Shown here: one piece after another, positions 7,946 to 21,768 of the stretch
Layout: each line of letters begins with the position of its first letter
How positions within the stretch are numbered: the stretch's first letter is position 1
Source of the DNA: a virus
DNA length: 21,768 nucleotides
Direction: 5' to 3' (one strand)
Virus record (IMG/VR): IMGVR_UViG_3300009093_001221
Span: 1-21,768 of that record
Notes under the pieces: generated by a model
What the model saw: the letters and a program-made list of their open reading frames with translations, nothing else
Told to the model about the DNA's origin: nothing
The model's database searches: none
Translations under genes and position numbers: made by a program

Positions 7946-9658
7946 ATGCCCGACCAGCCGACCGACGCCGTCATCCGCTTTGAGCCCGACGGCTACGATC
8001 TGAACCGCCCTTGGCTGCTTGGGCGCCAGTCCGCCGGCAACGGATTTCTGCGCGCCGCCGTGCAGGGGCGTGGCGAAGGTCCGGTTTACGGCTACACGCC
8101 TCTCAAGGCGTCGGCGCAGATGTTCGAGCGCATGGTCCGAGATTTCGACCCGGCGGCGGAGCCGATCTGGATCCACGGCGAACAGCCGGAGCGAATTGGC
8201 CAGACCCGCGGTGTCCTCTACATCGCCGATCCGACGCTGACGACGTTCGCCCGCGTGCGGTTGCGCGTAGGCCCGGCAAGCTACTCACTTTGCGGGGTCA
8301 CCCACACCCTGGCCTCCGCCAACATGCAGCAGGTGCTCACGGAGCTCCTCTCCGAGGCGGTGACGCCCTGGGACGCGCTCATCTGCACATCGACCGGCGC
8401 TTTGAAGAGCGTGCAACTGGTGTTGGAGGCGCAGGGGGATTTCCTGAAATGGCGCTTCGGCCCGCAGGTGCGCCTGCAGCCGCCGCAGCTCCCCATCATC
8501 CCCCTTGGCGTCCACTGCCGCGATTTCGACATCGGCGAGGATGAACCGCATGCCGCGCGGGCCAAACTCGGCATCGCGCCCGAAGAGGTCGCGGGCCTCT
8601 ACGTCGGACGCCTCGTCTACGCCGGCAAGGCCCATCCATTGCCGATGTTCCTCGGCCTGCAGGCCGCCGCCGAACGGACGAGGCAGAAACTGGTCTTGAT
8701 CCTTTGCGGCCGCGCGCCGACCGAGAATATCGAGGCGGCCTACCTTGCCGGCGCCGCGAAGTACGCGCCCGACGTCCGGCTCGTCCGGGTCGACAGCCGC
8801 GACGACGATGCGCGGCGCAGCGCCTGGGCGGCGGGCGACATTTTCATCTCGCTGGCCGACGGCATCCAGGAAACCTTCGGCCTGACGCCGCTCGAGGCGA
8901 TGGCCCGCGGCATGCCGGTCCTGGTTTCCGACTACAATGGCTACCGCGACACCGTGCGGGACGGGGTGGATGGGTTCCGCGTCGCCACCTGGGCCCCGGA
9001 GGCCGGTATGGCAGGCCAGACCTACGCCCTACGGCACGAACTCGCCGCCATCACCTATGATCGCTACTCGTGGGTCGTCGCCGCCGCGACATCCGTCGAG
9101 ATGGCGGAACTTGTCGATCGCCTGACCCTCTTGGTCGAGCAGCCGGACCTTCGCCGGACCATGGGCCTCGCCGGCCAGGCCAGGGCGCGAGAGTTGTTCG
9201 ACTGGGCCCATGTCTTTCGTCAGTACCAGGCTCTCTGGGCCGACCTGAACGCGCGCCGCGCCGCCGCAGCGGCGAACCCCGAAGACCTGGCATGGGCGCA
9301 GGCCGCGCCGCGTGCGGCCCCGTCCCGCCTCGACCCGTTCCACACCTTCGGCCACTACCCCACAACCCGGATCGGCCATGCCACCCAGGTCGCTCTCGCC
9401 GAGGGCGTGACCCTCGAGACCTATCGCGAACGGGCCCGCGACGACCTTTTTCCGGGCGTCGTGGTCCCTGAGGTCGTCGTCCTGCCGATGTGGTCCGAAC
9501 TCGAAAACGGCCCCAAGACGATCAAGGCCCTCGCCCGTGTCGCCCAACTCTCGCCCGATCTCGCGGTCGTGGTGGTGGGAACGCTGGCGAAGATGGGGCT
9601 GGTGGTGTTGCGGGCGGCGACGTGGTCCGGTGAAACCGGCGACAAGGCTGAACGTTGA
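7946..9658 (+). CDS. GT4-type glycosyltransferase with C-terminal extension
   Basis: This 570-residue, apparently cytoplasmic protein has a GT-B layout. The N-terminal half contains a GVTHTLASANM segment. The donor-binding half contains YVGRLVYAGK (about residues 219-228) and the E-x7-E motif in ETFGLTPLE (E309 and E317), followed by AMARGMPVLVSDYNGYRD. These are hallmarks of retaining GT4 enzymes using nucleotide sugars. About 110 residues follow the usual GT4 end (from roughly 455) and resemble no domain I know. The ATG at 7946 has an AAGGA site seven bases upstream. The start lies 74 bases from the divergently read nozzle gene. With the methyltransferase gene downstream it may alter the host surface polysaccharide or a virion component; the acceptor is unknown. 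Confidence 0.85.
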   Translation: MPDQPTDAVIRFEPDGYDLNRPWLLGRQSAGNGFLRAAVQGRGEGPVYGYTPLKASAQMFERMVRDFDPAAEPIWIHGEQPERIGQTRGVLYIADPTLTTFARVRLRVGPASYSLCGVTHTLASANMQQVLTELLSEAVTPWDALICTSTGALKSVQLVLEAQGDFLKWRFGPQVRLQPPQLPIIPLGVHCRDFDIGEDEPHAARAKLGIAPEEVAGLYVGRLVYAGKAHPLPMFLGLQAAAERTRQKLVLILCGRAPTENIEAAYLAGAAKYAPDVRLVRVDSRDDDARRSAWAAGDIFISLADGIQETFGLTPLEAMARGMPVLVSDYNGYRDTVRDGVDGFRVATWAPEAGMAGQTYALRHELAAITYDRYSWVVAAATSVEMAELVDRLTLLVEQPDLRRTMGLAGQARARELFDWAHVFRQYQALWADLNARRAAAAANPEDLAWAQAAPRAAPSRLDPFHTFGHYPTTRIGHATQVALAEGVTLETYRERARDDLFPGVVVPEVVVLPMWSELENGPKTIKALARVAQLSPDLAVVVVGTLAKMGLVVLRAATWSGETGDKAER

Positions 9659-9766
9659 AATTACACCTCCGGAGACGAGTGCGGCGAACGCGGTATCGAA
9701 GCGGTTGGAGGCCACGGCAGGTCTAGCGGGATGCGACCGGTTAGCTTCCCGTGGTAGTGTCGCAAA

Positions 9767-10432
9767 ATGAGTGCAGATGCGGTCGCGGACGCGCGGGGGA
9801 TTTACGAGCGATTTCAGGACGAGCAGTTGGCCGCCTCACCGTTGTCCTCGATTGCCGATTGGGTGGCGAGTGGGAGGCCGCCTAGCGCCCTCGAACTGCG
9901 AAACGCCGGATTTACATCGGAGGGGCCAGCAGAACTGAAATTCGTCCGCTTGGGATTTGCGCGGCAGTGGGGTTTCGCGATCCCCTGCGCTGAGATGGTC
10001 GAGGCACTTCGCCCCCTGTCCCCGTTGGTCGAATTGGGCGCCGGAACTGGCTATTTGGCGGCGATGTTACAGAATGCCGGACTAGACATCGTCGCCACAG
10101 ACGCACAGGTCGTCGGCCCCATTGGCTATGGCTTTCAGCTCGGCCGTTACCGTCCTCTAGTTCTATCTGACGCTACGGCGGCCGTCCGAGGCTATCCAAC
10201 TCGATCGGTATTCTGTTCCTGGCCTACCCAGGGCGATCCCTGGGCACTCGATGCTGTCCAAGAGATCGAACCAGGACGCCGTCTCGCGTTAATTGGAGAT
10301 GGACCCGAGGGCGTAACGGGCACGCCAGATCTCTATGAATTTCTCAAGATAGCTTTCGAGGTGTTGGCCGAAGTGGATATCCCGCAGTTCCCCAAATGTC
10401 GGGACAAGCTGACGATCCTCCGTAGGCGCTAG
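9767..10432 (+). CDS. Class I SAM-dependent methyltransferase
   Basis: This 221-residue protein has motif I ELGAGTG (residues 89-95) in a Rossmann-type strand-turn-helix, and an acidic motif II position (IVATDA, about 109-114). The later FCSWPTQGD and IGDGPEGVTGTP segments are typical of a small SAM-methyltransferase family of unknown substrate. The base composition is visibly less GC-rich than in neighbouring genes, with codons such as TTA, ATT and GAA, which suggests separate acquisition. The ATG at 9767 lacks a clear ribosome site. The 108-base gap after the glycosyltransferase shows no convincing promoter. The stop shares the bases CTAG (10429-10432) with the stop of the opposing adhesin gene. 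A joint role with the glycosyltransferase, such as O-methylation of a surface sugar, is inference. Confidence 0.8.
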   Translation: MSADAVADARGIYERFQDEQLAASPLSSIADWVASGRPPSALELRNAGFTSEGPAELKFVRLGFARQWGFAIPCAEMVEALRPLSPLVELGAGTGYLAAMLQNAGLDIVATDAQVVGPIGYGFQLGRYRPLVLSDATAAVRGYPTRSVFCSWPTQGDPWALDAVQEIEPGRRLALIGDGPEGVTGTPDLYEFLKIAFEVLAEVDIPQFPKCRDKLTILRRR

Positions 10433-11055
10433 GCACGCATATACACCGCGATCGCGAGCCCGGGACCAGGAAGCGTACCGCCCTGCCCATTCCCGGCCCC
10501 ATGACCGACACTGTTTGTCCCTGCCATTTGCCCGTGCCCGCCCCGGTACGGGAGCATAGCGGGCGCTCCTGCTCCACCATCGGCTGCAGCGCTATGAAGG
10601 CCGCCCGGGCCACCTCCCGTTCCAGCGCCGGTAGCGCCATTGGAACTGGTTGAACCCGCGGTTCCGGGGCTCCCGTTGAGGTTGACATCCCCGCCCGTTG
10701 CGATTCCGCCCGTTACGACAGATGCCCTGCCTGCGGAGGCAATCGAGCCATCCGGAAAGGTCGCCGTGGTGTCCACGTAGTTCAAAGCGAACTCACCGAC
10801 TACAAGCGTGACAGTTTGTGCCAAGGTCAGAAATTTTGTGACCTCTACGTAAGCACCGGATGCCCCACCAGCTGTAACGACCGAACCATCACCGCCCGCG
10901 CCCCAGAGCACGAATTTCCAATACCCGGCCTTCGGCGGCTTGAAGACGTAGGATGCCCCCCAGGGAAAGACGAACGGCTCCTGAAGCCGCTTGTTTGACT
11001 TCCCCGGCCGCATCGATTGACTGACGAACCCCTTGAGGGATTGCCCCGCCGGCAT
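10429..11055 (-). CDS. Glycine-rich adhesin-like tail protein
   Basis: This is a 208-residue protein. An N-terminal part (about 1-55) leads into YWKFVLWGAGGDG and GGASGAYVEV strands, then a long Gly/Ala/Ser/Asn-rich region (about 110-200). The layout matches glycine-rich domains at the tips of phage fibres, where polyglycine-II sandwiches present loops to the receptor. Receptor recognition is inferred from that resemblance. I chose the ATG at 11053-11055 because it overlaps the upstream stop as TGATG; a longer reading to 11298 would run through the neighbouring gene. Composition is less GC-rich than in the structural genes, consistent with exchange of receptor-binding modules. Its 3' end meets the methyltransferase gene at a shared CTAG. 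Confidence 0.75.
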   Translation of the reverse strand: MPAGQSLKGFVSQSMRPGKSNKRLQEPFVFPWGASYVFKPPKAGYWKFVLWGAGGDGSVVTAGGASGAYVEVTKFLTLAQTVTLVVGEFALNYVDTTATFPDGSIASAGRASVVTGGIATGGDVNLNGSPGTAGSTSSNGATGAGTGGGPGGLHSAAADGGAGAPAMLPYRGGHGQMAGTNSVGHGAGNGQGGTLPGPGLAIAVYMRA

Positions 11056-11465
11056 CAGTAGTCCGCCCATTCTGCAATGAAGTTGAAGCTCTTGGAAATA
11101 CCGGTCGCCACGTAGATGCGCTCGCTCGCCTGGAGGATCATCGGGTTGTCGTCGCTGAACCCGAAATCCACTGTGAGCGAGCCGTCCGTGCCGCTGACGG
11201 TGTCTGAGCCGCAGGTCTGCGCCGCAGCCAGGAACTTCGTCGTCCCCGCATCGATGGACCGGTAGATCTGCAACGCGCTGGCCGTCACCGTCTCGCAAGG
11301 GACGGCCACGATCCGCGTCAGCCGGCCTCCGCTCGATCCCGCGGTGAGCAGTAGCGTTGCGGTCGGCGGGCTAGCCGGCGTGAAGTTGGTGTTGGCGGTG
11401 GACACATTGACCATCGCCGACTTCGGCGTTTGCGGGGTGATGATGGAATTGGCTGTCCCGGGCAT
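11055..11465 (-). CDS. Beta-rich tail-associated protein
   Basis: This 136-residue protein is Thr/Ser/Ala-rich with alternating beta-type segments and two cysteines (about residues 57 and 85). It begins MPGTANSIITPQTPKSAMVN and has no membrane or enzymatic motif. It lies between the fibre gene and the glycine-rich adhesin, is coupled to the latter by TGATG, and has an AGGAG site six bases before its ATG. A fibre-linker or baseplate-like role is plausible from position only. I do not recognise the family. Confidence 0.65.
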   Translation of the reverse strand: MPGTANSIITPQTPKSAMVNVSTANTNFTPASPPTATLLLTAGSSGGRLTRIVAVPCETVTASALQIYRSIDAGTTKFLAAAQTCGSDTVSGTDGSLTVDFGFSDDNPMILQASERIYVATGISKSFNFIAEWADY

Positions 11466-11474
11466 GGAGGGCTC

Positions 11475-12113
11475 CTAGAGGGCGACCGCGAGGGCGACCT
11501 GCACCCCCAGGATCTTGCTGCTGAAGTCGGAGAGGTCGGCGGTGGCGATCGGTTTCCAGAGCGCCGTCGCACCGTTGGTGAACAACGCCTGCCCGGCCGC
11601 TCCCGCCTGGGCCGGCAGGATCCCGGCGTTGGCGGTGAAGGCCAGGTTGTCGGCATAGGCCTTGGTGGCGGCGTCCTGCGGCCCGCTCGGATCGGCGACC
11701 GAGGTGAGCCGCTGGGCTGCGAAATCCGTGGCGACCACCCGCCTGACATTGGTTCCGTCGCAGATCGCGGTCACGGCCTCGCCGGGCTGGATCACCGCCG
11801 TCGCGCCGGCGCCCGTGGTGATCGTGACCGCGCCCGAACAGGCGTTCCACACGTGATAGCTCTTGCTGACGCTGGGGATGCTCACCGTGAACGGGCCGGC
11901 GCCGGTGAACTTCACCATCGCCGCGCGGGCTTCGTCGTCGCCGGCGTTGGCGGTGGTGAGCGCATAGTCGCCGGTCAGGGCCTTGGTCAGCCAGCCCGCC
12001 ACCGCGTAGTCGGCGTGAGCCAGCACCGTGTTCAGCTTGTCGCCCCAGAGATTGATGTTCTCGCCGGTGAACTGCAGCTCGAAGCGCAGGGAGGCGGAAA
12101 ATGACGACGGCAT
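11475..12113 (-). CDS. Tail fibre protein
   Basis: This is a 212-residue protein. The N-terminus (SLRFELQFTGENINLWGDKL, then LNTVLAHADYAVAGW) matches a fibre family common in alphaproteobacterial phages. The VADPSGPQDAATKAYAD segment (about 138-154) is the typical tail-fibre repeat hinge. A middle section (about 70-130) forms a beta-rich domain, and the C-terminal part is short for a fibre. Receptor binding may therefore be completed by the two downstream proteins, which would act as fibre extension and tip. The ATG at 12111-12113 overlaps the upstream stop as TGATG. Confidence 0.75.
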   Translation of the reverse strand: MPSSFSASLRFELQFTGENINLWGDKLNTVLAHADYAVAGWLTKALTGDYALTTANAGDDEARAAMVKFTGAGPFTVSIPSVSKSYHVWNACSGAVTITTGAGATAVIQPGEAVTAICDGTNVRRVVATDFAAQRLTSVADPSGPQDAATKAYADNLAFTANAGILPAQAGAAGQALFTNGATALWKPIATADLSDFSSKILGVQVALAVAL

Positions 12114-12358
12114 CAGACGACCACCGCGCCGGTGTCTTCACGGACCCAGTGGACCCCGTCGGAATGGGCCAGGACGTTGAGGTCGCTGATCAGCGCCACG
12201 CACTGCGGATAGCTCGCCGCCGGCGGCAGCTTGGCCTGCGCCACGGCGAAAACTGGTGCGGGCGCCCCGGGGGTCTGCAGCGCGCGGATTGCGTCGTGGA
12301 TCGATGTCAGCACCGCGTGGAAGGCGGCCGGGATCCCCGGCCCAATGGGCGTCAGCAT
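12113..12358 (-). CDS. Small conserved phage protein
   Basis: This 81-residue protein starts MLTPIGPGIPAAFHAVLTSI and contains LPPAASYPQCVALISDLNVL and HSDGVHWVREDTGA. The pattern is familiar from tailed-phage gene sets next to fibre genes, but no function is known to me. The ATG at 12356-12358 lies two bases after the adaptor stop, with GGGGAG about nine bases upstream inside the adaptor gene. It ends in a TGATG overlap with the fibre gene. It may be a fibre-attachment or trimerisation helper, which is inference from position. Confidence 0.7.
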   Translation of the reverse strand: MLTPIGPGIPAAFHAVLTSIHDAIRALQTPGAPAPVFAVAQAKLPPAASYPQCVALISDLNVLAHSDGVHWVREDTGAVVV

Positions 12359-12360
12359 GG

Positions 12361-13002
12361 TCAAACTCCCCTGGTGATGTCGAAGTCCGCCCGGCCCCGG
12401 CGCGGAATCTCGGTGGCCAGCGTGCGCGGCGACCGGGCGCGGGCGTCCTTGGTGTTGATCTCGGCGATCGCCCGGTCCAGCCGCGCCTCGTAGGCCGCCG
12501 CCAGGGCGTCGTCGCGCAGGAATGGGCCGGCTTCGGCGAGCGTCGCGAACAGATAGGCGTCGGGATAGTCCGCCAGGAGCCCGTTGGTCGGCTGGCCGGG
12601 TGACAGCGCGAACCGCGCCAACATCCGCAGCACCAGGCCATAGGTCTGGTCGCAGGGCCGGTCGAAGGCCAGGTTGCTCCCGTCGATCGACCAGCTGCGC
12701 GGCTGCCCCTGCAGGCTCGAGGCGCCCAGCAGGCTGGGCTCGATGAACCGCAACGCCTGGCGCTCGCCGGATATCGCGATCCACAGCGCCAGCGGCTCGG
12801 CGAAACCGGCCGGGAGCGGCAGCGTGCGCGCGCCGGCGGTCGCCGTCAGCGTGACCTCGACTTCCGCGAGTCGCGCCCGCAACACCCGGTTCAGCCGGGC
12901 TTCCGCCAGGGTGATGAATTCCGGGATGCGCTGGATCAGATCCCCGCGCACCAGCCAGTTGGCCGCGGCCGCCTGCAGCTCGGCATAGGTCGTGATGGAC
13001 AT
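12361..13002 (-). CDS. Head-tail adaptor (P22 gp4 / T7 gp11-like)
   Basis: This is a 213-residue protein. The N-terminal helix (MSITTYAELQAAAANWL) and the IPEFITLAEARLNRVLRARL segment are characteristic of podovirus adaptor proteins, which form a ring under the portal. A beta-containing middle and an Ala/Arg-rich helical C-terminus (about 140-200) follow. The gene lies between head and tail genes, as P22 gene 4 does. The product would seal the portal after packaging and provide the platform for the nozzle. P22 gp4 also has muralytic activity, but nothing here shows that. Confidence 0.82.
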   Translation of the reverse strand: MSITTYAELQAAAANWLVRGDLIQRIPEFITLAEARLNRVLRARLAEVEVTLTATAGARTLPLPAGFAEPLALWIAISGERQALRFIEPSLLGASSLQGQPRSWSIDGSNLAFDRPCDQTYGLVLRMLARFALSPGQPTNGLLADYPDAYLFATLAEAGPFLRDDALAAAYEARLDRAIAEINTKDARARSPRTLATEIPRRGRADFDITRGV

Positions 13003-13090
13003 GGTGATCCTGTTCGTCGGATTGCATGGACGTGCGTCGGCGCGCGCTCGACGCGCGTCACGGCGACTGACAAGGTTCGGCTTCTTGTGA

Positions 13091-13588
13091 CTACGCGCCA
13101 GGCTGGGTCGCTGGCCCAGGTCTATCGGCCGGCGGATAGGCTTCGGCTGTGCCGTCCGCTCTCAGACGGATGAGGCTCGACCTGATCTGGAGCGCCGCCT
13201 GGCCGGACACTACAATTCGCGTGGTCTCGCCATTGGTCACATACTGGTCTTGCCCGGACGCGATGCAGACGCCGTGGGCGTCGAGAATCTTGACCGCGGC
13301 ATCATTGTCCCCAGTCTTCCAGTTGACCCACAGGTCGTCGCACGCGTCGTTGCAGGTGACGGTGTTGGCGGCGCCCAACACTACGACGACCTGCCGACCT
13401 CCGGCGCGCGTCACATCACCCCCGGCGACGACCACCTGGAGATCGTAGGCCGGATCGCGCGCAGGGGCCGGGAGGGCGACCGTGGCAAGCCATACCATCG
13501 CGAACATTGCACTTCCGGTGATCGCCCCCCAAGAGAAGGCGGTCAGCCGAATTCGGCGCGCCGGCGACGCCTCCGATTGCCCGATCAT
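13091..13588 (-). CDS. Membrane-anchored accessory protein with CxxxCDD domain (paralogue 2)
   Basis: This is a 165-residue protein of unknown function. A polar N-terminus is followed by one membrane segment (about 19-40) and then a domain facing the periplasm or outside. That domain carries GGDVTRAGG, the TCNDACDDLW motif (C79, C83, D84, D85) and VKILDAHGVC, with a third Cys at 108, and it ends in a Pro-rich tail. The upstream protein has the same order of motifs, so the two are paralogues. I chose the ATG at 13586-13588 because it overlaps the upstream stop by four bases (ATGA); an in-frame start at 13651 would run through the neighbour. Neither protein resembles a structural component, so cargo acting on the envelope is the likely role. 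Confidence 0.7.
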   Translation of the reverse strand: MIGQSEASPARRIRLTAFSWGAITGSAMFAMVWLATVALPAPARDPAYDLQVVVAGGDVTRAGGRQVVVVLGAANTVTCNDACDDLWVNWKTGDNDAAVKILDAHGVCIASGQDQYVTNGETTRIVVSGQAALQIRSSLIRLRADGTAEAYPPADRPGPATQPGA

Positions 13589-13986
13589 GATTGCGGCCTC
13601 GGTGGGGCGGGGCTCGTCCTGAGACCAAGCCACCAGGCGTGCCGCGCCCACGGCGCACGCCGTAGCCCGTTCCAGCGTTCGACAAGAAGCCGGCTGTCAG
13701 CATCGAGCACGCGGACCCCCAACAGATCGCCGGATACCCACGGGATGTCGTCGCAGGTCCCACGGCAGTGCTGTCGGATCAGCAGGTGAGAGGAGGCAAG
13801 CACGATATCCTCTGCCCCCACCCGGCTGAGGTCGGCGCCGCGCCCCGTCAACATGGCTCGCTCGAGACGCCCGCCATGGTCGCGATGGAGAAAGGCTTCA
13901 TACCCTATCCCCCCTACGAGAAGGATGGCGGTGAACCCCGAAACGCCCACGGCCATTCCGGCTAGGAAGCGCAGCATCCTGCCCAT
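13585..13986 (-). CDS. Membrane-anchored accessory protein with CxxxCDD domain (paralogue 1)
   Basis: This is a 133-residue protein of unknown function. Residues 5-28 form a membrane segment (FLAGMAVGVSGFTAILLVGG). The exported part contains GADLSRVGAED, the HCRGTCDDI motif (C74, C78, D79, D80) and VRVLDADSRL, aligning with the next gene. The paired cysteines could form a disulphide or bind metal. It ends in an Arg/Trp/Pro-rich tail. The ATG at 13984-13986 has a GAGG site about six bases upstream; Met4 is an alternative start. A GAAC-N7-GAAC box lies 46-60 bases upstream. The pair interrupts the head operon between the candidate decoration gene and the adaptor gene. Superinfection exclusion or host-envelope modification are possibilities, not shown. 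Confidence 0.7.
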   Translation of the reverse strand: MGRMLRFLAGMAVGVSGFTAILLVGGIGYEAFLHRDHGGRLERAMLTGRGADLSRVGAEDIVLASSHLLIRQHCRGTCDDIPWVSGDLLGVRVLDADSRLLVERWNGLRRAPWARHAWWLGLRTSPAPPRPQS

Positions 13987-14031
13987 TCTTGCCTCTCGTT
14001 CGAGACCACGTCCAAAGCTCTATCATGACCG

Positions 14032-14046
14032 GAACGAAGTGGGAAC
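14032..14046. promoter_or_regulatory. SOS-box-like direct repeat upstream of the paralogous membrane pair
   Basis: GAAC-GAAGTGG-GAAC is a perfect match to GAAC-N7-GAAC, the reverse complement of the alphaproteobacterial LexA site GTTC-N7-GTTC. It lies in the 128-base gap between the decoration-like gene and the paired membrane-protein genes, 46 bases before the start of the first. A rightward promoter-like sequence (TTCGAG, 16 bases, TATCAT at 14021-14026) precedes it. The leftward -10/-35 elements are unclear. Confidence 0.6.
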
Positions 14047-14114
14047 GAAAATGCCGTGCGACAGGGCGACGCCACATGTGCGGTGGGCGGAGTTGATAGC
14101 TGTCGGCCGCAAGC

Positions 14115-14423
14115 TCAGAACACCGCCGCGCCGAAGGTCTTTTCCGGTCGGAAGTAGAACAGCAGATAGGGTTCCGTGGCCGGATCGATCGCGCTCGCGG
14201 TCATGTTGCCGAACGTGATGGCCAGAGTGTCCGTCGCCGACACCCTGGCGGTGCTCACCACCAGACCGGCGTGCAGCGATGGCTTGTTGACGTGGACAAA
14301 GTCGCCGGGCCTGAGGCCCTTCACGGTGAAGCTCTGTTCGGCCGAGGTGTTGGCTGCAACCGAGGCGACATCGAGCGCCAGCGCGCAGACGCCGAAACGG
14401 TCTTCGTTGATCATGGCGCCCAT
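14115..14423 (-). CDS. Small head protein, candidate decoration protein
   Basis: This 102-residue beta-rich protein starts MGAMINEDRFGVCALALDVA, with SFTVKGLRPGDFVHVNKPSL and RVSATDTLAITFGN strands and a YLLFYFRP end. Similar small proteins commonly follow the coat gene in related phages. A capsid-cement or decoration role is inferred from that position and size. The ATG at 14421-14423 has a strong GGAGGG site six bases upstream. It lies 82 bases downstream of the coat gene on the same strand, and no promoter is evident between them. Confidence 0.7.
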   Translation of the reverse strand: MGAMINEDRFGVCALALDVASVAANTSAEQSFTVKGLRPGDFVHVNKPSLHAGLVVSTARVSATDTLAITFGNMTASAIDPATEPYLLFYFRPEKTFGAAVF

Positions 14424-14505
14424 GGGCGGCCCTCCGATTTGAGATTGGAAGAGATGCGCGGAAGGAGCCGCCCGCTTGCGAGAGCAGCTCCCCGCGTTCA
14501 ATGCG

Positions 14506-15720
14506 TCAGTGGTTGGCCAACCGGCAGGCGAGCTGCGGGCGGATCGTCTTGAACCCGTAGAGCACGTCGAGCCGGCACGGGAACTTGTCCGAGTTGATGT
14601 CGTACTGCCGCACGATCCGCATCGAGACCCCGTCGAAGGCCTCCCGCGCAGCGAAGTCGACACCCCGCGGCATCACCATATCGGCGCTCGCGAAGGCGAA
14701 GGCCCCTTTCTGGTAGGCCATGGACAGACCGTAGTTCGTGGAGATCACCCCCGAGAAGCTCAGGGCCGCCGTGGCCGACGTGGTCGGGATCACCACATTC
14801 TGATAGGGCCCGCTCAGGACGATCGCCGGCGTGATCGAGACCGCCCCGGCGCCGCCGGCGTAGTCCGCCGCCACAGCGAACTGCTGCAGGATGCCGGTGG
14901 ACTGCTTGGTTTCCGGATGCACCCGGAACACGTTGGCGATGGTGAAGATGTCGCCCTTCACTGCCGCACCCGTACCGGTCGCGACGGTGATCGATGTCAC
15001 CGGCGTGGCGACAAGCGGCAGTACGCCGACCAAGGTCGAGGTGGTGTAGGCGCCCGTGGCCGCGCCGCGCGAATGCGAGGGCCACAACGTGTTCTCCATG
15101 AAGTCGAACCCGGCGGTCCGCCCCATGAAGCCTTCGCGGTTCTGCTTGCTGATCGTGGTCTGGTCGTTGAACAGGCCCTTCAGGGCGTCGACCAGGTCGA
15201 CGTTGTCCTGGGTGTTCAGGTTGCAGGTCCGGCCGTTCAGGGGCGCCAGGTTGTCCACCAGGATCTTGCGGCCCTGCAGCACCTTGGCGAACGTCGCCGA
15301 CTGCCCCTGGTTGTCCACCTGGTTGTAGACGTCCTTGTACATGGTCATGGCGTCGGACTCGATGTTCGCCGCCAGCACGGCCATGGCCGGCTCCAGGATG
15401 CGCTCGGAGAAGTCGTCGAGGGCCAGAGTCAGGTCCACCGAGGTGAAGTTCAGGTCGACGCCCTTCTGGGTCTGCACCTTCAGGTCCACGGAGGTCTCCG
15501 TGGTGTCGTTGAGCGTGCTGTTGTTGCCCAGGGGGGCGCCGGTTCTCACCACATACTGGTTGGGCAGGCGCACCTTCAGGGTGTCGCCGATCTTGGCGCC
15601 CTGACGGGCGAAGCTGTCATCGTATTCGCGCGTGATCGAGCCTACGAAGTTGAGTTTCTGGTGCAGCACGCGCAGGGCCTCCCGCGTCACCGCGGTCGGC
15701 GTCAGGATGGCGTTGGCCAT
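14506..15720 (-). CDS. Major capsid protein, P22 coat family
   Basis: This 404-residue protein has the P22 coat-type N-terminus (MANAILTPTAVTREALRVL) and the RVRLPNQYV-like segment near 50. It also has a long helix with AMAVLAANIESDAMTMYKDV (spine helix) and the EGFMGRTAGFDFMEN segment about 197-211. The insertion-domain-like part and the C-terminal YDINSDKFPCRLDVLYGFK agree with the family. It forms the icosahedral shell in an HK97-type fold, assembled on the scaffold encoded upstream. The ATG at 15718-15720 has an AAAGGA site about eight bases upstream. A rightward membrane gene separates it from the scaffold cluster, so it may need its own promoter; none is obvious in 15721-15930. Confidence 0.9.
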   Translation of the reverse strand: MANAILTPTAVTREALRVLHQKLNFVGSITREYDDSFARQGAKIGDTLKVRLPNQYVVRTGAPLGNNSTLNDTTETSVDLKVQTQKGVDLNFTSVDLTLALDDFSERILEPAMAVLAANIESDAMTMYKDVYNQVDNQGQSATFAKVLQGRKILVDNLAPLNGRTCNLNTQDNVDLVDALKGLFNDQTTISKQNREGFMGRTAGFDFMENTLWPSHSRGAATGAYTTSTLVGVLPLVATPVTSITVATGTGAAVKGDIFTIANVFRVHPETKQSTGILQQFAVAADYAGGAGAVSITPAIVLSGPYQNVVIPTTSATAALSFSGVISTNYGLSMAYQKGAFAFASADMVMPRGVDFAAREAFDGVSMRIVRQYDINSDKFPCRLDVLYGFKTIRPQLACRLANH

Positions 15721-15800
15721 TTGGTCGTCCTTTCAAGGATGGGGTTGTGATTGAGCCGCGAAAGCCGCCGAGGCGCGGAGACCGCGCGTGCTCGGCGCCG

Positions 15801-15817
15801 GCCGGCAGTCAGCCGGC
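15801..15817. other. GC-rich stem-loop upstream of the coat gene
   Basis: GCCGGC (15801-15806) and GCCGGC (15812-15817) pair around an AGTCA loop. No T-run follows on either strand. The element lies about 80 bases upstream of the coat ATG, in a 244-base gap (15721-15964) that also holds a tandem GAGTCTT repeat near 15827-15841 and the promoter/SOS-box region of the rightward membrane gene. A leader hairpin is possible. Confidence 0.3.
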
Positions 15818-15904
15818 GGCGGCTTTGGAGTCTTGAGTCTTCGGCGGGCCCGGTGTTCCGGGCGGTGGCCCAGGAAGGCTCAGCCCGGATCGGCGCCCTA
15901 CCGC

Positions 15905-15933
15905 TTGTCACGCGGACAAGCGTCACCTATGTC
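15905..15933 (+). promoter_or_regulatory. Candidate promoter for the 132-residue membrane gene
   Basis: TTGTCA (15905-15910, five of six consensus bases) is followed after exactly 17 bases by TATGTC (15928-15933, a weak -10). The SOS-box-like repeat begins two bases after the -10, so LexA bound there would cover the start of transcription. The ATG lies 31 bases after the -10. Confidence 0.45.
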
Positions 15934-15935
15934 TT

Positions 15936-15950
15936 GAACGAAACAGGAAC
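15936..15950. promoter_or_regulatory. SOS-box-like direct repeat upstream of the 132-residue membrane gene
   Basis: GAAC-GAAACAG-GAAC is a perfect GAAC-N7-GAAC direct repeat. The second half is followed by CGTTC at 15957-15961, giving an additional inverted GAACG/CGTTC pair. The box ends 14 bases before the ATG at 15965. Confidence 0.65.
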
Positions 15951-15964
15951 GCGAGCCGTTCTCG

Positions 15965-16363
15965 ATGTGGTCTATAAAAAGCCTTTCCGTTTGGCAGCGA
16001 TGGTCCGGCTCGGTCTTGGTCGTCGGGATGTCCTTCGTCCTCATAGGGGCTGGCATCGGGCGAAACTTCGGAGACGTGGATCTGTGGCTGGCCTACGGCG
16101 GCGCGGCGGCCTACGTCGCGGGCGCCGGCATCTGGTCGATCGCGTCTGCCTGGGACGCCGGTGGCGTTGTCCGCCGCCTGCTGTTGATCTGGTTGCCCGC
16201 TCTCATACCGGTCGCCTGGCAGGCCTCGGCCGTCCACGCGACGCGTCAGGACGACACCAATGCCTTGGCCGTGATGATGTTGATGCCGCCGGTGGCCGCG
16301 ACCTGCCTCGCTGGCGCGGTGGCGACGCTCATCACCCTGCTGGGCCCGCACGATACGGACTAG
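15965..16363 (+). CDS. Four-helix membrane protein (accessory gene)
   Basis: This is a 132-residue, strongly hydrophobic protein with four probable membrane segments (about 15-33, 41-60, 69-88 and 104-127). It has a polar loop with His/Arg/Asp at 91-98 and no recognised family. The basic N-terminus (MWSIKSLSVWQRW) fits a cytoplasmic start. It is read against the operon, between the coat gene and the gene downstream of the scaffold, and appears to have its own promoter with an SOS-like box at the transcription start. The stop lies 42 bases from the end of the opposing gene, with no clear terminator between. It does not resemble a virion part. Membrane-acting cargo (exclusion, division control or lysis timing) is a guess. 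Confidence 0.7.
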   Translation: MWSIKSLSVWQRWSGSVLVVGMSFVLIGAGIGRNFGDVDLWLAYGGAAAYVAGAGIWSIASAWDAGGVVRRLLLIWLPALIPVAWQASAVHATRQDDTNALAVMMLMPPVAATCLAGAVATLITLLGPHDTD

Positions 16364-16405
16364 AGCCGTCGCGATGATGTTTCGCAGGGGTCGAAGGGCG
16401 GCGGC

Positions 16406-17080
16406 TCAAAGGGCCGGATAGCGCAAGTACGCCGCCAGATCCAAAGGCGGCGGCGGAGCGCCGTCGTCGCGAAGATGGGTCCGGTAACCCGGCGTTCGTC
16501 CATCTCCCATCCGTCGACCGAAGATCGGCTCCGAAACATCGCCAGCGAAGCTGTTCGAGTTGCTGTCCCAGATGCCGTAGAAATTGCCGCCCCGATTGAC
16601 GCCCTGGGCGTGGAGCAGTGCTGGCAGGGCTGCCTGCTCTGCAGTCTCGTTCGGCAGGAATCTCGAGCCAAGCACGCGGGACGGCTTCGCATAGTCTTTG
16701 CTTTGAGCCGCGGGCGTTACGGCGGCGCGGACCCGGTTCGAGCCGTCGATCGTTCCGCCCCAGAAGTCGGGGCCTTCAAGCGAAGGCTCGCCTCTGGCGA
16801 TGAGTCGCCTGCTGCCGTCGTCGTACTCCACGAACATGTGGTCAGCCAAGCCAGCGGCGTTTTCCACCGGCCGGGCGTGAACCGTCACTTCCGTGCCCGG
16901 ACCGCGTCGTGGGGCCATCTGCAGCGCCACAAGTTCCCGCGGCGAAAGAAGGATGCCATCTGGCGATGGGGTCTGGCTCCGGATTGCGCCCAGCAACCCG
17001 CCGGGATCGGGAGCGGGCACGAGCAGCGACCCATTGTTCGCCAGGAACGGATTGCCGGTGGAACTGGGAGCTTCGCTCAT
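16406..17080 (-). CDS. Head-operon protein with possible papain-like (permuted NlpC/P60-type) features
   Basis: This is a 224-residue protein. The first 45 residues (MSEAPSSTGNPFLANNGSLL onwards) are polar and Pro/Gly-rich. The central part has DHMFVEYDDGSRRLIARGEP (about 80-99), and the C-terminal part NFYGIWDSNSNSFAGD (about 166-181). A His followed by a strand with a D-G turn, then a later N-S-N-S-F-A helix start, recalls permuted papain-like folds found in phage and toxin proteins. Here a Ser sits where such families often carry Cys or Ser. This is pattern resemblance only. The ATG at 17078-17080 overlaps the scaffold stop as TGATG, so the two are translationally coupled. It could be a head-maturation factor or a packaged enzyme. 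Confidence 0.65.
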   Translation of the reverse strand: MSEAPSSTGNPFLANNGSLLVPAPDPGGLLGAIRSQTPSPDGILLSPRELVALQMAPRRGPGTEVTVHARPVENAAGLADHMFVEYDDGSRRLIARGEPSLEGPDFWGGTIDGSNRVRAAVTPAAQSKDYAKPSRVLGSRFLPNETAEQAALPALLHAQGVNRGGNFYGIWDSNSNSFAGDVSEPIFGRRMGDGRTPGYRTHLRDDGAPPPPLDLAAYLRYPAL

Positions 17081-17901
17081 CAGCGGCCCCGCCGCATCTG
17101 TTCGTTGCGGCGCTTCATCCATTCCTTGGTGGCGAGCTCGTCGCGCACGCCGCCGCCGCCGGCCGCCGAACCGCTGACCATGATCGCTGGCCGCACGGCC
17201 TGGGCGCGGACGGCCGAGGCCGCGGCGCCGTCCTGGCGCCGGGTGCTGTCGCCCCGATAGGCGCAGTGCAGGATCTTCCAGACCCGCGGATCGTCCGCGG
17301 CGCCCAGTTCGTCCAGCGTCACCCCGTGGCCGCGGGCGTAGTCCACCAGCTTGGCGGCCAGTTCCGGCGACCAGCCGTCGATCTCCTGCTGCAGCTTCTG
17401 CCCAGTGGCGGCCATGCGCGCCGCCGCCTCGCGCGCCGCCTGCACCTCGGCGCGCGAGCGATGGTGCGCCAGGGTCTGCGCCAGGCCGTCGCGCGCCTGG
17501 GCCAGAGCTTGGAAGCGGCCCCACAGAGCCTGGGCGCCGTGCGGGTCATGCGCCGCGAAGGCCTGCCAGTCGACGCCGCGCAGGTCGGCGAGCTGATGAT
17601 CCAGCGCCGCCAGCTGCACGCCGCCGGCGTGGGCGTGGCCCACCGCGTGGGCCTGCTGGGCCACGGCTTCCCGCTCCGCGATCAGCGCGCGGCGATGCTG
17701 CGCCAGTTCCTGGGTCTTGCGGGTATAGTCGGCCTGCCGCAGGAACCCGCCCTTCAGGGCGCCGGGCAGCTGATAGACGTCGCCCTCGTGCTCGACCTCG
17801 AAGGTGTCGTCGTCCGGCCCGTCCCCGGTGGCGTCGGGAAGGTCCTGGTCCACAGGCGCGATAGCGTCCTCGCCCATCAGGGCGTCGTCGTTCTTGTCCA
17901 T
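17080..17901 (-). CDS. Scaffolding protein
   Basis: This is a 273-residue, highly charged, helical protein. It has an acidic N-terminus (about 1-35), a short beta patch (FEVEHEGDVYQLP) and FLRQADYTRKTQELAQHRRA leading into a long Ala/Gln/Arg coiled-coil region (about 55-175). A Gly-rich linker then leads to a basic C-terminal helix (ELATKEWMKRRNEQMRRGR). The acidic start, helical core and basic tail, placed between portal and coat genes, fit a P22-type scaffold whose C-terminal helix binds the coat. The ATG at 17899-17901 has an AAGGGA site about five bases upstream. The C-terminal tail is partly repeated in the neighbouring glycine-zipper protein. Confidence 0.82.
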   Translation of the reverse strand: MDKNDDALMGEDAIAPVDQDLPDATGDGPDDDTFEVEHEGDVYQLPGALKGGFLRQADYTRKTQELAQHRRALIAEREAVAQQAHAVGHAHAGGVQLAALDHQLADLRGVDWQAFAAHDPHGAQALWGRFQALAQARDGLAQTLAHHRSRAEVQAAREAAARMAATGQKLQQEIDGWSPELAAKLVDYARGHGVTLDELGAADDPRVWKILHCAYRGDSTRRQDGAAASAVRAQAVRPAIMVSGSAAGGGGVRDELATKEWMKRRNEQMRRGR

Positions 17902-17974
17902 GTTTTCCCTTGGGATGGCCGCCCGTGGGCGGAGGTGGAGAAAGGCGCGCGTGGCGCGAAACGGGCGTCTTGAG

Positions 17975-18451
17975 CTATTGGCCGGCGATGTGGCGCCAGC
18001 GGTCGTTCATCCACTGCTTCGTGGCGTCGAGGTCATTGTCGATCTCGCCCCGCGGATCGCTCACGATGCGGTCGATCCGGGCGGCGTGGTCGTCATAGAT
18101 GCGCTCACCGACGCCTTGGCCGAAGGCCGAGCCCACAGCCGCCCCGATAGGCGCATTCACGCCGCCGGCGGCCGCACCCAGGGCTCCCCCCGCGGCTCCG
18201 CCTGCGAGCCCGCCAGCTAGGCCGAACCACGCGCGGGTCTTGTTCGGCGACATCGCCACATCCGCAAGGTCGAAGACCAGCGCAGGCGCGCCGGGTATCC
18301 GCTTCAAGAGGAAGCGGGCGCCGGGCTTCGCGGATTTCAGCATTCCTTCGCCGACCCGCTCCACAGCTTTGGCTTGACCATCGAGGAGGCCGCCGGCGAC
18401 CTGCGACGCGCCGGGCGCATAGGGGCTTGCGCTGCCATCTTCGTCGGCCAT
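17975..18451 (-). CDS. Glycine-zipper protein with scaffold-like C-terminal tail
   Basis: This is a 158-residue protein. Residues about 70-112 form a glycine-zipper hydrophobic region (GLAGGLAGGAAGGALGAAAGG, then APIGAAVGSAFGQGVG) of the kind that inserts into or assembles in membranes. It is flanked by charged helices. The end (DLDATKQWMNDRWRHIAGQ) resembles the scaffold's C-terminus (ELATKEWMKRR). The ATG at 18449-18451 is preceded by GGAGGT four bases upstream, better than the in-frame GTG at 18463. It lies between portal and scaffold genes. A role as an internal head protein delivered with the DNA, or a membrane-pore component, is inferred from these features. The start is only 53 bases from the divergent membrane gene. 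Confidence 0.7.
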   Translation of the reverse strand: MADEDGSASPYAPGASQVAGGLLDGQAKAVERVGEGMLKSAKPGARFLLKRIPGAPALVFDLADVAMSPNKTRAWFGLAGGLAGGAAGGALGAAAGGVNAPIGAAVGSAFGQGVGERIYDDHAARIDRIVSDPRGEIDNDLDATKQWMNDRWRHIAGQ

Positions 18452-18469
18452 CTGGACCTCCACCGTTGA

Positions 18470-18497
18470 TTGAAATTCTTTCCGGCCGCGCTAGACT
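18470..18497 (+). promoter_or_regulatory. Promoter of the 221-residue membrane gene, probably leaderless
   Basis: TTGAAA (18470-18475) and TAGACT (18492-18497) are separated by 16 bases. Transcription would start about 18504-18505, at or beside the ATG at 18505, so the mRNA would have essentially no leader. No ribosome site precedes the ATG, which agrees with this. Confidence 0.55.
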
Positions 18498-18498
18498 C

Positions 18499-18513
18499 GA
18501 ACGAATGCAGAAC
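18499..18513. promoter_or_regulatory. SOS-box-like direct repeat overlapping a start codon
   Basis: GAAC-GAATGCA-GAAC is a perfect GAAC-N7-GAAC repeat. It begins one base after the -10 hexamer, and the ATG at 18505-18507 lies inside it. A further CGTTC (18518-18522) makes an inverted GAACG-N3-CGTTC with the second half. A repressor here would block initiation directly. It also lies 48 bases from the divergent glycine-zipper gene. Confidence 0.68.
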
Positions 18514-19170
18514 GAACCGTTCACGCCACGGAATCCCGACCGGTCCACGTCGCTGGGCATGCAGGCCGAAAAGCTCGTTGGCCTCCCGCCCCTCTTCTTC
18601 GCGTTCGGCCTCTACAAGAACGACCCCGATATGTACGCCATCGCCTTCATCACCTGGGCGATCGGCTACTTCGTCTGGGGCCTGTGGGCGCTGTGGCGGG
18701 TCGCGGACCGTTTCCCGCGCGGTGATGTCTGGCGCGCCGTCGCGATCCTGGTCTATGGCGGCGCGCCCTGGCTTGTGGCGCCTCTGCCGGGAGCTCTGAT
18801 TGGCGGTCGCGCCGGCGCCTGCATCGCCTTCCTCCCGATTTTCGCCGGCGGCGTCTGGGCCTTCGTGACCGCGGGCAACCTCAGTCCCGATCCCCCGGCG
18901 CCGCAACGCCGCGCATGGCTGCTTTGGGGCAGCACCGCGATCTGCGCGCTCTGGGTCGGCGTGGGCGGCCTGGTGTCCGCGCTGCTCATCACGCATCCGC
19001 ACAGCGACGGGACTGTCTATTACCCCTTCGTCGGACTGGCAGCGGCCATTGGCCTGGCGAACCTGCCCTTGGCCGCCCTGCTGGGTCGCAGCGCCTTTCG
19101 CGGGTTCACACGCCATCGGCCGCTTACGGCAGAGTCGCTGCTTGCGGACTCCACGGCGCCCATCCCCTAG
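18505..19170 (+). CDS. Multi-pass membrane protein (accessory gene)
   Basis: This 221-residue protein has five or six probable membrane segments (about 27-37, 43-65, 77-97, 103-124, 137-163 and 171-194). A polar N-terminus (MQNEPFTPRNPDRSTS) and a cytoplasmic-type basic C-terminal loop frame them; I recognise no family. The ATG at 18505 is chosen over upstream in-frame positions because the -10 box lies just before it and the sequence after it is the first convincing coding stretch. It is read against the operon between portal and scaffold clusters. Its stop shares CTAG (19167-19170) with the portal stop. Its promoter/SOS-box layout marks it as separately regulated cargo. Confidence 0.75.
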   Translation: MQNEPFTPRNPDRSTSLGMQAEKLVGLPPLFFAFGLYKNDPDMYAIAFITWAIGYFVWGLWALWRVADRFPRGDVWRAVAILVYGGAPWLVAPLPGALIGGRAGACIAFLPIFAGGVWAFVTAGNLSPDPPAPQRRAWLLWGSTAICALWVGVGGLVSALLITHPHSDGTVYYPFVGLAAAIGLANLPLAALLGRSAFRGFTRHRPLTAESLLADSTAPIP

Positions 19171-21095
19171 CGCTGCATCACCTTCATCCGGTTGGTTTCG
19201 GCCTCGAAGGCTTCGATCTCCAACTGGCGCGTCGCGTGGGCGCGATCCTGCTTCAGCGCGGCGATCTCGGCCTTCGCCGCGGCAAGCGCCTGGGCGAGTT
19301 GGGCCAGCTGCGCCTGGGCCGCCTGGGCCGTCTGCGCGTCCGGGGACCCGCCGCGGGCCTGGGGCGGCAGCATGGCCTGCAGCCGCTGCGCCACCTCGTC
19401 GGCCCCCGGCCAGTCGAGGTTCTTGGCCAGCAGGTCGCCGATCACCGGGGCTGCGGCCGGATAGGCGCGGATCAGCTCGATCATCTGGTTGGCCGCCTCC
19501 TCCCGGCGGCTGGTGAAGCTGGGTCCGGAGGTCACCGTCAGGTCGTAGGTCCCGACCGTCAAGTCGTAGACCTTCTCGATCTCGCGGATCTGGCCGGTCG
19601 GGTCCGCGGCCGCCCCCGCTGCGGCGCCCGGCGGCTGGTTCACCGGCACCGCTTGCGACTGCCCGTCCGGTCCCAGCACCCGCACGACGCGCGGCGTCGA
19701 ATAGACCCTGGGGATCAGGTCCAGCAGAATCCGCCCGGCGTGCCGCATCGCCCGGTTCAGGTTGTCGATGTAGTGGAAGGTCGAGACGTCGCCTTCCCGC
19801 TGGCGCATCAGGATCGCCTTGCCCGAGGTCTCGTTCGACCGCGCCCCGAGGCTCGCGTCATAGAGCCCCATGATCGACTTCATGTCGTCGCTGGCGCTCA
19901 GCGCCTCGGCCATCGCCCCGGCCGGCGGTCCGGCGAAGCCCTGGCGCATCGGCGGCTCGGGTCCGTCGTACTCGATATAGGCGTGGCTCTGGATGTTGGC
20001 CGTGGCCCACTTGGCGCTGTCGGTCTCGAAGGCGCCCTTGCGGCCGATGAACGGCGTCTTGGGCGCCAGCGCGACGAGCTCCGTCGAGGTCGTGCGCCAG
20101 TAGTTGAACATCCGCTGCGGATCCTTGGCGTCGCGCACCAGGCTGCGCAGCCGCCTGCGGCCGTCGATATGCAGTTCCTCGCCATAGACCGGCACGATGG
20201 GGATGTACTTGCCCGCCCACTCCACGGTCTCCAGCACCTCGGCGCCCGTCAGGATCCGCTGGGTGACCTTGTGGCTCGCCACGCTGCGCGGCCGGCCTAC
20301 GACGGTGACGCCGAGCGCATCGAACATCGCCTTCTGCTTCTCGTAGGTCTCGACCTCGACCACCTGGCCGTCGGACAGCGCCACGATGCTCCGCTGCACA
20401 GCCACACGCTGCCAGTGCTCGGCCACCATCACCCGGTCGCCCTCGAGCCAGGGCCCCGTCAGCGACGCATAGCTGTCCGCCGTCCAGTCCACGGCGTCCG
20501 CGCCCTTCCAGCGCGCCTCGAAGGCGGCCTTCGGCAAGGTGTCGACCACGAACGCCGAGTTCCAGTCGGATGAGTCCGCCGCCGTCCCGTCGGGGTCGCC
20601 GTAGATCGAGAACGGATTGGCCACCCGCTCGATCGCCAGATCCTGATCGAAAGTGTCGTCGGACGAATAGCGCGTGTTGATCCGGAAGTAGCCGAACCCG
20701 CCGGTCACCGCGAAGTCGAGCGCGGTGTCGTAGGCGACCTCCGCGTCCGAGCTCTGCTCGATGTGCCGGATCAGGCCGTTGAATACCTCGGCGGTCTTGG
20801 GGTCGGCCTGGCTGTCCACCGGATGGACGACGATCGAGGGCTTGTTCTGCCTGGCGTCATTGACCACCTGGCGAATGAAGGCCGGCAGCCGGTTGATGGT
20901 CAGGCAGGGCCGCCCGTCCAGGTCCCGCTCGCGCTTGATCTCAGCCGGCCACTGCTCGCCGAGCCTCGCGAACTTGAGGTCGTCCAGCGCGTCGCGCCGG
21001 TTCTCGGCCTCGGCGTCCGCCGCCCGCTCGAAGGCCTCGCGGGCCTCTTTGATGATCTCGTCGTCGGACAAGGCTGGCCCCCACGGAAAGCACAT
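19167..21095 (-). CDS. Portal protein, P22-like
   Basis: This 642-residue protein forms the dodecameric ring for DNA packaging and exit. Family features include the FARLGEQWPAEIKRERDLDG and RPCLTINRLPAFIRQVVNDA segments (about 43-80), then VTGGFGYFRINTRYSSDD and the ANPFSIYGDPDG turn. The IPIVPVYGEEL core and the SNETSGKAILMRQREGDVST segment (about 419-438) follow. A Gln/Ala-rich helical C-terminus (about 580-642) matches the barrel end of P22-type portals; P22's own is longer (725). The start is uncertain. ATG at 21093-21095 is listed, but TTG at 21069-21071 (giving MSDDEIIKEA) has a G-rich stretch upstream and the more typical N-terminus. It is the first gene after the strong promoter at 21248-21276. 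Confidence 0.92.
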   Translation of the reverse strand: MCFPWGPALSDDEIIKEAREAFERAADAEAENRRDALDDLKFARLGEQWPAEIKRERDLDGRPCLTINRLPAFIRQVVNDARQNKPSIVVHPVDSQADPKTAEVFNGLIRHIEQSSDAEVAYDTALDFAVTGGFGYFRINTRYSSDDTFDQDLAIERVANPFSIYGDPDGTAADSSDWNSAFVVDTLPKAAFEARWKGADAVDWTADSYASLTGPWLEGDRVMVAEHWQRVAVQRSIVALSDGQVVEVETYEKQKAMFDALGVTVVGRPRSVASHKVTQRILTGAEVLETVEWAGKYIPIVPVYGEELHIDGRRRLRSLVRDAKDPQRMFNYWRTTSTELVALAPKTPFIGRKGAFETDSAKWATANIQSHAYIEYDGPEPPMRQGFAGPPAGAMAEALSASDDMKSIMGLYDASLGARSNETSGKAILMRQREGDVSTFHYIDNLNRAMRHAGRILLDLIPRVYSTPRVVRVLGPDGQSQAVPVNQPPGAAAGAAADPTGQIREIEKVYDLTVGTYDLTVTSGPSFTSRREEAANQMIELIRAYPAAAPVIGDLLAKNLDWPGADEVAQRLQAMLPPQARGGSPDAQTAQAAQAQLAQLAQALAAAKAEIAALKQDRAHATRQLEIEAFEAETNRMKVMQR

Positions 21096-21141
21096 ATGCA
21101 AGCGCCCGCGCGAGCATTCCCGGCGGGTAGAATGGCGGCCC

Positions 21142-21157
21142 GCTCCCAACCGGGAGC
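21142..21157. other. Stem-loop in the portal leader
   Basis: GCTCCC (21142-21147) and GGGAGC (21152-21157) form a perfect 6-bp stem with a 4-base loop. It lies in the roughly 145-base leader between the predicted start of transcription (about 21241) and the portal ATG. No T-run follows, so a terminator is unlikely; a leader structure is possible. No small gene with a convincing start is visible in 21096-21240. Confidence 0.35.
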
Positions 21158-21247
21158 CGAACCGCAAACGGTGTTGGAAATCGCGACCTGGCCGCCGCTC
21201 ATCGCCTCTAGGGCGGAGCGTTAGGCGCACCAATCAACGCTGACAAA

Positions 21248-21276
21248 ACTCTACCGAAAAGTCGTCGCGATGTCAA
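21248..21276 (-). promoter_or_regulatory. Strong promoter for the portal/structural operon
   Basis: Read on the minus strand, a perfect -35 TTGACA (21271-21276) is followed after exactly 17 bases by TAGAGT (21248-21253), four of six matches to TATAAT. Transcription would start near 21241 and run into portal, glycine-zipper and scaffold genes. This is a host sigma-70-type promoter rather than a specialised late promoter. It begins after the stop of the membrane gene at 21319. Confidence 0.7.
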
Positions 21277-21291
21277 GAACAAAAAGAGAAC
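21277..21291. promoter_or_regulatory. SOS-box-like direct repeat abutting the portal promoter
   Basis: On the plus strand it reads GAAC-AAAAAGA-GAAC; on the minus strand GTTC-TCTTTTT-GTTC, the textbook form of an alphaproteobacterial LexA site including an AT-rich centre. It directly touches the upstream edge of the -35 element, so bound LexA could hinder RNA polymerase on the structural operon. Confidence 0.7.
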
Positions 21292-21318
21292 TAATTCGGT
21301 CGCGCAAGTCGAATGCCA

Positions 21319-21768
21319 TCACTCAGCGTCCGTGCGCCGGCGCAATTCGGTGAACAGCCAAGCGCCGGCGGGAAGCGCGGCGAGGCCGGGAAGGATCAGT
21401 CGGATGGCCAGGTAATCGCCCCAACTCTCGAAGGAGACCTTCTCACTGTCCAAGACCAGCCAACAAACCACCCCGGCTAGGCCGAGCGCCAGAACAACCG
21501 GCGCCATCCAGCGCAGGGCCGTCGCCCGACGCCCCGCTTTGCGCGAGGCGCGCCAAAGCCATAGCGAAGCGACGAGCAAGGCCGGTCCGCTTCCGGAAAG
21601 TCCAAGGGATAACAACACCAAAAGGGTGGGCGCCTCAGGAAAATCCCGCAGCAAGAACAATCCAACACCCACCAGCACCTGTAGCCCCCGGGCGAGGGCC
21701 GCAACGCCCGTCACCATCAGACCGATCGCGACGGCGTAGGCGGCAATTCGGCGAACTTTAGGTTGCAT
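21319..21768 (-). CDS. Multi-pass membrane protein at the window edge
   Basis: This is a 149-residue protein whose ATG is the last codon of the window, so its upstream region cannot be examined. Four or five hydrophobic segments are visible (about 8-25, 29-40, 47-72, 87-106 and 119-140), with a basic loop near 74-86 and a charged C-terminus. No family is recognised. It lies upstream of the portal promoter, where terminase genes are expected nearby, and resembles the other small membrane genes inserted in this operon in size and type. It could equally be a longer gene whose start lies outside the window. Confidence 0.65.
   Translation of the reverse strand: MQPKVRRIAAYAVAIGLMVTGVAALARGLQVLVGVGLFLLRDFPEAPTLLVLLSLGLSGSGPALLVASLWLWRASRKAGRRATALRWMAPVVLALGLAGVVCWLVLDSEKVSFESWGDYLAIRLILPGLAALPAGAWLFTELRRRTDAE

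Follow-up and report, generated by a model that had tools for sequence, protein, structure and literature searches.

Direct repression of late phage genes by the host SOS repressor is already known from the tectivirus GIL01 of Bacillus thuringiensis, whose late promoter P3 is repressed by host LexA acting with the phage protein gp7 (PMC6182141), which is a precedent for the late-expression wiring that the initial annotation called unusual. In Caulobacter, the published LexA operator is GTTCN7GTTC (PMC12700426), which a passage of PMC9578287 traces to da Rocha 2008, and in the Caulobacter GTA a palindrome between the -35 and -10 elements recruits the antiterminator GafZ (PMC11150451). Here we describe a promoter in a 21,768-nucleotide stretch of viral DNA (all of IMG/VR record IMGVR_UViG_3300009093_001221, hereafter the window) that resembles both systems. 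With a probability of roughly 0.75, we read it as a LexA-repressed late promoter belonging to a phage-derived element, P22-like and vertically inherited, of Phenylobacterium-type bacteria, with a suggested requirement for an element-encoded protein, ORF196.

The portal promoter and other boxes in the window

The window carries, on its minus strand, a portal gene followed by genes for a scaffold, a P22-type coat and further virion proteins, with genes for small probable membrane proteins inserted among them:

19167..21095, minus strand: P22-type portal protein gene (PF16510, E 3e-204), start ATG 21095 or TTG 21071
17080..17901, minus strand: scaffolding protein gene (phrog_3927)
14506..15720, minus strand: P22-type coat protein gene (PF11651)
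18508..19170, plus strand: 220-aa probable membrane protein gene, a reversed insert between the portal and the next late gene, no Pfam match
15965..16363, plus strand: 132-aa probable membrane protein gene, a reversed insert upstream of the coat gene
13585..13986, minus strand: 133-aa probable membrane protein gene, inserted
21319..21768, minus strand: 149-aa probable membrane protein gene, right end of the window

Two further plus-strand genes, one glycosyltransferase-like and one of no assigned function, lie reversed among the tail genes at 7946-10432; the first is retained in some relatives, and no LexA box accompanies the pair.

Upstream of the portal gene, the promoter is laid out as follows:

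21277..21291, minus strand: predicted LexA (SOS) box GTTCTCTTTTTGTTC, abutting the -35 directly; the motif also occurs at host lexA, recA and imuA
21271..21276, minus strand: -35 element TTGACA, 6/6 match
21254..21270, minus strand: 17-bp spacer, with a dyad conserved in relatives (a putative GafZ-like element) that the window copy fits weakly
21248..21253, minus strand: -10 element TAGAGT, 4/6 match
21230..21247, minus strand: initial transcribed region TTTGTCAGCGTTGATTGG, which is conserved; transcription is expected to begin near 21241

The initial annotation had described TTGACA, a 17-base spacer and TAGAGT ahead of the portal, with an SOS-like repeat directly against the -35, and both descriptions are borne out: the promoter (minus strand, 21276-21248) is the top sigma-70-like site within 9500-21768, and GTTCTCTTTTTGTTC (21291-21277) adjoins its TTGACA, a fusion (GTTCN7GTTCTTGAC) that appeared in none of 2000 first-order Markov simulations of the window. 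The portal itself probably starts at ATG 21095 or TTG 21071, which, with transcription starting near 21241, would leave a 5' leader of roughly 150-170 nt; the mechanical 688-aa reading frame beginning at 21233 was rejected because that position falls within the leader. Directly before the portal start (~21097-21140, minus strand) lies a GC-rich inverted repeat, CCCGCCGGG...GCGCGGGC, similar in relatives and possibly a leader hairpin.

The box is present at the portal promoter but is not confined to it. GTTCN7GTTC matches the window four times against 0.65 expected, and at least four matches were found in 0 of 100 shuffles and 7 of 2000 simulations. The other three matches all lie at the inserted genes, and a further one lies just beyond the window on L001, the contig that continues it:

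18499..18513, plus strand: predicted LexA box GAACGAATGCAGAAC, downstream of a promoter-like TTGAAA-16-TAGACT (18470-18497)
15936..15950, plus strand: predicted LexA box, between a weak TTGTCA-17-TATGTC, which it follows closely, and the start of the reversed small gene 15965..16363
14032..14046, minus strand: predicted LexA box, 46 nt upstream of the 133-aa gene 13585..13986
L001 4162-4176: fifth box, before the 149-aa gene 21319..21768

The start codon of the plus-strand gene 18508..19170 falls inside GAACGAATGCAGAAC, an arrangement that suggests a leaderless mRNA blocked by LexA. At several inserted genes the box is located past the -10 or overlaps the start codon, which is the placement of repressor sites. 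A sixth box, also on L001, forms a full composite promoter ahead of a 232-aa gene. Start codons inside boxes were also seen at reversed inserted genes in two related genomes (G012, region 32516; G072, region 20090).

Identity and conservation of the box

The same motif marks the core SOS genes of related hosts. In genomes carrying relatives of the element, GTTC-N7-GTTC precedes lexA in 16 of 16 cases and recA in 14 of 15 (the exception is L154, and L157 was left out as the second fragment of a split recA). It stands at the start of the imuA-imuB operon in 11 of 12 related genomes, imuA being named by its position about 800-1000 bp upstream of an imuB-type polymerase gene, and at none of 13 dinB-type genes. 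Two imuA 15-mers, GTTCTTATTTTGTTC and GTTCCTATTTTGTTC, are letter-identical to boxes before the portal in relatives. Across 81 aligned composite promoters (of 102 non-redundant), the TTT before the second half-site, which the search did not impose, is 95-98% conserved, and the fourth base of the first half-site is C in 95%. The elements conserve the box and are enriched in it, and the hosts' lexA, recA and imuA have it in common with them. This gives good support to LexA-type control and to the assignment of the portal box to the Caulobacteraceae LexA box GTTC-N7-GTTC on sequence grounds.

The portal promoter is no isolated case: in many of the relatives with upstream sequence, dozens in all (from IMG/VR and Caulobacteraceae genomes), the fusion recurs ahead of the portal as the module GTTCNNNNTTTGTTC-TTGAC-N-TAGNNT. 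Where 7.9 boxes would be expected in 15 related elements, 62 were counted, almost without exception on the late strand, whereas their flanking host DNA holds 5 against 6.3 expected. Conservation is not uniform. Some promoter copies have a degenerate first half-site (for example, GTTG or GTTT), and the element of Phenylobacterium J367 has its box promoter 672 bp upstream of the portal rather than beside it. The box before the portal is absent in some relatives, including one 85% identical (L004) that retains the -10 and start region but has other sequence in place of the box and -35. A distant clade (L057-L067, ~65% portal identity) has the same box inverted, 6 bp before TTGAC, which is better explained by an orientation-free repressor site than by a fixed activator site.

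We considered whether GTTCN7GTTCTTGAC is a general SOS promoter of these hosts, as it was found in 70 of 101 genomes of the genus. In portal-less genomes, the composite often precedes orphan small-terminase-like genes or short phage-like ORFs; these downstream genes, together with decayed remnants of this element in two portal-less genomes, indicate that it is largely an element-type promoter. The LexA identification therefore rests on lexA, recA and imuA and not on the 70/101 count. Five portal-less sequences (L225, L233, L234, L237 and L239) place composite promoters before orphan small-terminase-like genes in chromosomal DNA with no obvious other phage genes.

Such scattered promoters also bear on the first alternative, in which an activator encoded by the element, such as the small ORF94 with its GafY-like position, binds the repeat and recruits polymerase from about -45, the likeness to a LexA box being fortuitous. 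GafY sites in Caulobacter likewise precede scattered orphan genes (PMC11150451), and the box in composite promoters always abuts the -35, where activators bind. However, the 8-base core, including the TTT that precedes the second half, is the same in host imuA boxes, several boxes cover a start site or start codon, a position from which no activator could act, the distant clade has the box flipped, and the published GafY element (ACTATG, about -120) differs from it (PMC11150451). We regard an activator site as unlikely.

Still less probable is a lambdoid-prophage arrangement in which the S24/XRE repressor encoded by the element binds the box. An S24 regulator is indeed widespread (84 of 101 genus genomes) and is encoded at the element's left end, but its own divergent region holds different candidate operators, palindromes of the form CTGTA...TACAG, with a GTTC box in only some of these regions, and the GTTC box occurs at core SOS genes. 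In 12 genomes, the S24 regulators keep the catalytic serine (GHSM) and lysine (VLVKR) and read GRVGAN at the cleavage-site position, where LexA reads Ala-Gly. The protein may be non-cleavable, comparable to the missing key residues reported for RogA. Finally, a chance or passively inherited match beside a constitutive promoter, free of LexA regulation, is the least probable reading: a few relatives have lost the box, yet its eight-fold enrichment is confined to the element and it is conserved among 102 non-redundant promoters and, in flipped orientation, in the distant clade.

The carrying element and its regulatory genes

The element that carries this predicted LexA-repressed promoter does not look like an ordinary prophage. 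The portal was matched in 49 of 101 genomes of the genus, and in 11 of 15 genomes the element is bounded on the right by murA, DUF2948 and hisD or the next genes of that block, while a left flank of cysE-DUF3126 is common to five of the 15 (flank genes were named by sequence recognition). No tyrosine integrase, the only type searched for, lies near the portal in 13 of 15, and no integrase or replication genes were recognised by eye in the gene list of one genome (G015). Portal distances follow those of the neighbouring murA and hisD (r = 0.81-0.83, Mantel p = 0.001) but hardly those of unlinked recA (r = 0.05) and weakly those of unlinked lexA (r = 0.25, p = 0.06). Coat, TerL and another virion protein track lexA more closely (r = 0.48-0.76), and this mixed pattern makes some exchange likely.

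Two genomes lacking the portal (G025 and G052) hold remnants at the same locus, each with S24, ORF196 and a box promoter; that of G052 also retains terminase genes and, at the expected beginning of the structural genes, a second box promoter. In the latter (L307, 14744-17764), the structural genes are deleted between the retained box promoter and DUF2239-murA, leaving a clean remnant. Portal dN/dS is ~0.09 in the closest pairs, no internal stops occur in 15 copies, and the median dN/dS is 0.29 for portal versus 0.14 for murA.

Mostly integrase-less, at one locus in most genomes checked and present there as remnants elsewhere, the element looks vertically inherited and GTA-like. It appears to be ancestral, under purifying selection and decaying in places. 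An ordinary temperate P22-like phage was set aside, as no tyrosine integrase lay near the portal in 13 of 15 genomes and no integrase or replication gene was recognised in the G015 gene list, and so was membership of the RcGTA/CcGTA family proper, as the RcGTA-type capsid cluster was absent and portal and coat are P22-type. A fuller proposal, to which we give somewhat less than even odds, is that Phenylobacterium harbours an ancestral, vertically inherited GTA built on a P22-type (short-tailed) phage, with head genes unrelated to those of RcGTA and late promoters gated both by SOS, through LexA boxes, and by a RogA/GafZ-like module at the -35/-10 dyad.

Evidence for this second layer begins in the spacer. 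Across ~100 copies, the promoter consensus is roughly TTGAC-ATTCGCGCGCGAATTTG-NTAGNGT-TTTGTCAGCGTTGAT, in which start-region conservation is partly selected for, since that region was aligned to a template. A dyad centred in the spacer scores z = 6.3 against column shuffles at its best centre (next best, 3.1), reaches 113 versus 90.1 (sd 4.3) in 28 diverse promoters and shows matched changes on both sides; the window's spacer fits it weakly. In related elements, from which S24 and ORF196 are known since both lie outside the window record, the left end has a different content: there a 214-aa S24-type regulator is accompanied by two small ORFs (~80-115 aa and 69 aa; no Pfam match) and ORF196, and in four genomes a LexA-box promoter starts 1-9 bp after ORF196.

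Profile-profile comparison of ORF196 with DUF6456, the domain of GafZ-type proteins of this family, scored 37.4, whereas 40 column-shuffled controls reached at most 23.0 and the reversed alignment 10.9. ORF196 had no individual Pfam match, its structure model matched nothing in the PDB, and a PF20057 search of related genomes gave no match over the cut-off, which leaves its relation to GafZ remote and unproven. Family-wide searches suggest that DUF6456, the regulator domain of classical GTAs, and a P22-like portal may rarely occur together in one genome. The initial annotation had proposed a host promoter under direct LexA control. The LexA part stands, supported by the boxes at host lexA, recA and imuA and by conservation and enrichment, but the host-only wiring probably does not: the dyad and conserved start region in ~100 copies, the S24 regulator and the remotely GafZ-like protein make it likely that a late regulator of phage type is also at work.

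Proposed control and comparison with known systems

In undamaged cells, LexA bound to GTTC-N7-GTTC just upstream of the -35 would block polymerase at the adjoining TTGACA. DNA damage would activate RecA and lead to LexA cleavage, and the portal promoter would open, as would the element's remaining late promoters with LexA boxes and its inserted membrane-protein genes. This sequence of LexA occlusion and RecA-driven opening is strongly supported by sequence. The conserved -35/-10 dyad and start region suggest a second requirement at the portal promoter. If the Caulobacter GTA is a guide, the S24 repressor, transcribed divergently, probably holds off the ORF196 operon, and ORF196 would load on RNA polymerase at the spacer dyad and carry it through the late genes.

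If this is correct, the host DNA-damage repressor directly holds capsid and inserted membrane-protein genes across much of a genus, and particle production, perhaps with DNA transfer, would be tied to DNA damage. Alongside the Caulobacter GTA, the Alphaproteobacteria would then have a second GTA-like lineage of independent origin for comparison, as well as a directly testable case of SOS and antitermination logic at a late promoter.

A literature search of open-licence papers yielded no account of an element of this kind from Phenylobacterium, and what appears to be new is the setting: a P22-type, chromosomally inherited alphaproteobacterial element that combines a regulatory module like that of a GTA with LexA boxes at many transcription units. 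GIL01 P3 shares LexA boxes within the late promoter and also needs a phage-encoded activator (PMC6182141). However, GIL01 infects a Firmicute, is unrelated, lacks a dedicated repressor and persists as a linear extrachromosomal phage, whereas the Phenylobacterium element, a P22-like one, resides in the chromosome, encodes an S24 regulator and carries boxes at many of its units. The Caulobacter SOS (LexA) regulon has the identical operator, GTTCN7GTTC, in its promoters, but the targets here are capsid, tail and inserted membrane-protein genes of a phage-derived element. Closest in regulatory layout is the RogA-GafY-GafZ system of the Caulobacter GTA, which has an S24-like repressor of 213 aa (214 aa here), a small activator, an antiterminator, a GafZ-recruiting palindrome in the spacer of the promoter and scattered accessory promoters (PMC9632790, PMC11150451); the putative counterpart of the antiterminator here is ORF196, a remote profile match. 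Unlike that agent, which belongs to the RcGTA-type (siphovirus-like) family and whose cluster promoter was described in a paper that makes no mention of LexA, the Phenylobacterium element has a P22-type head (PF16510, PF11651) and LexA boxes in its promoters.
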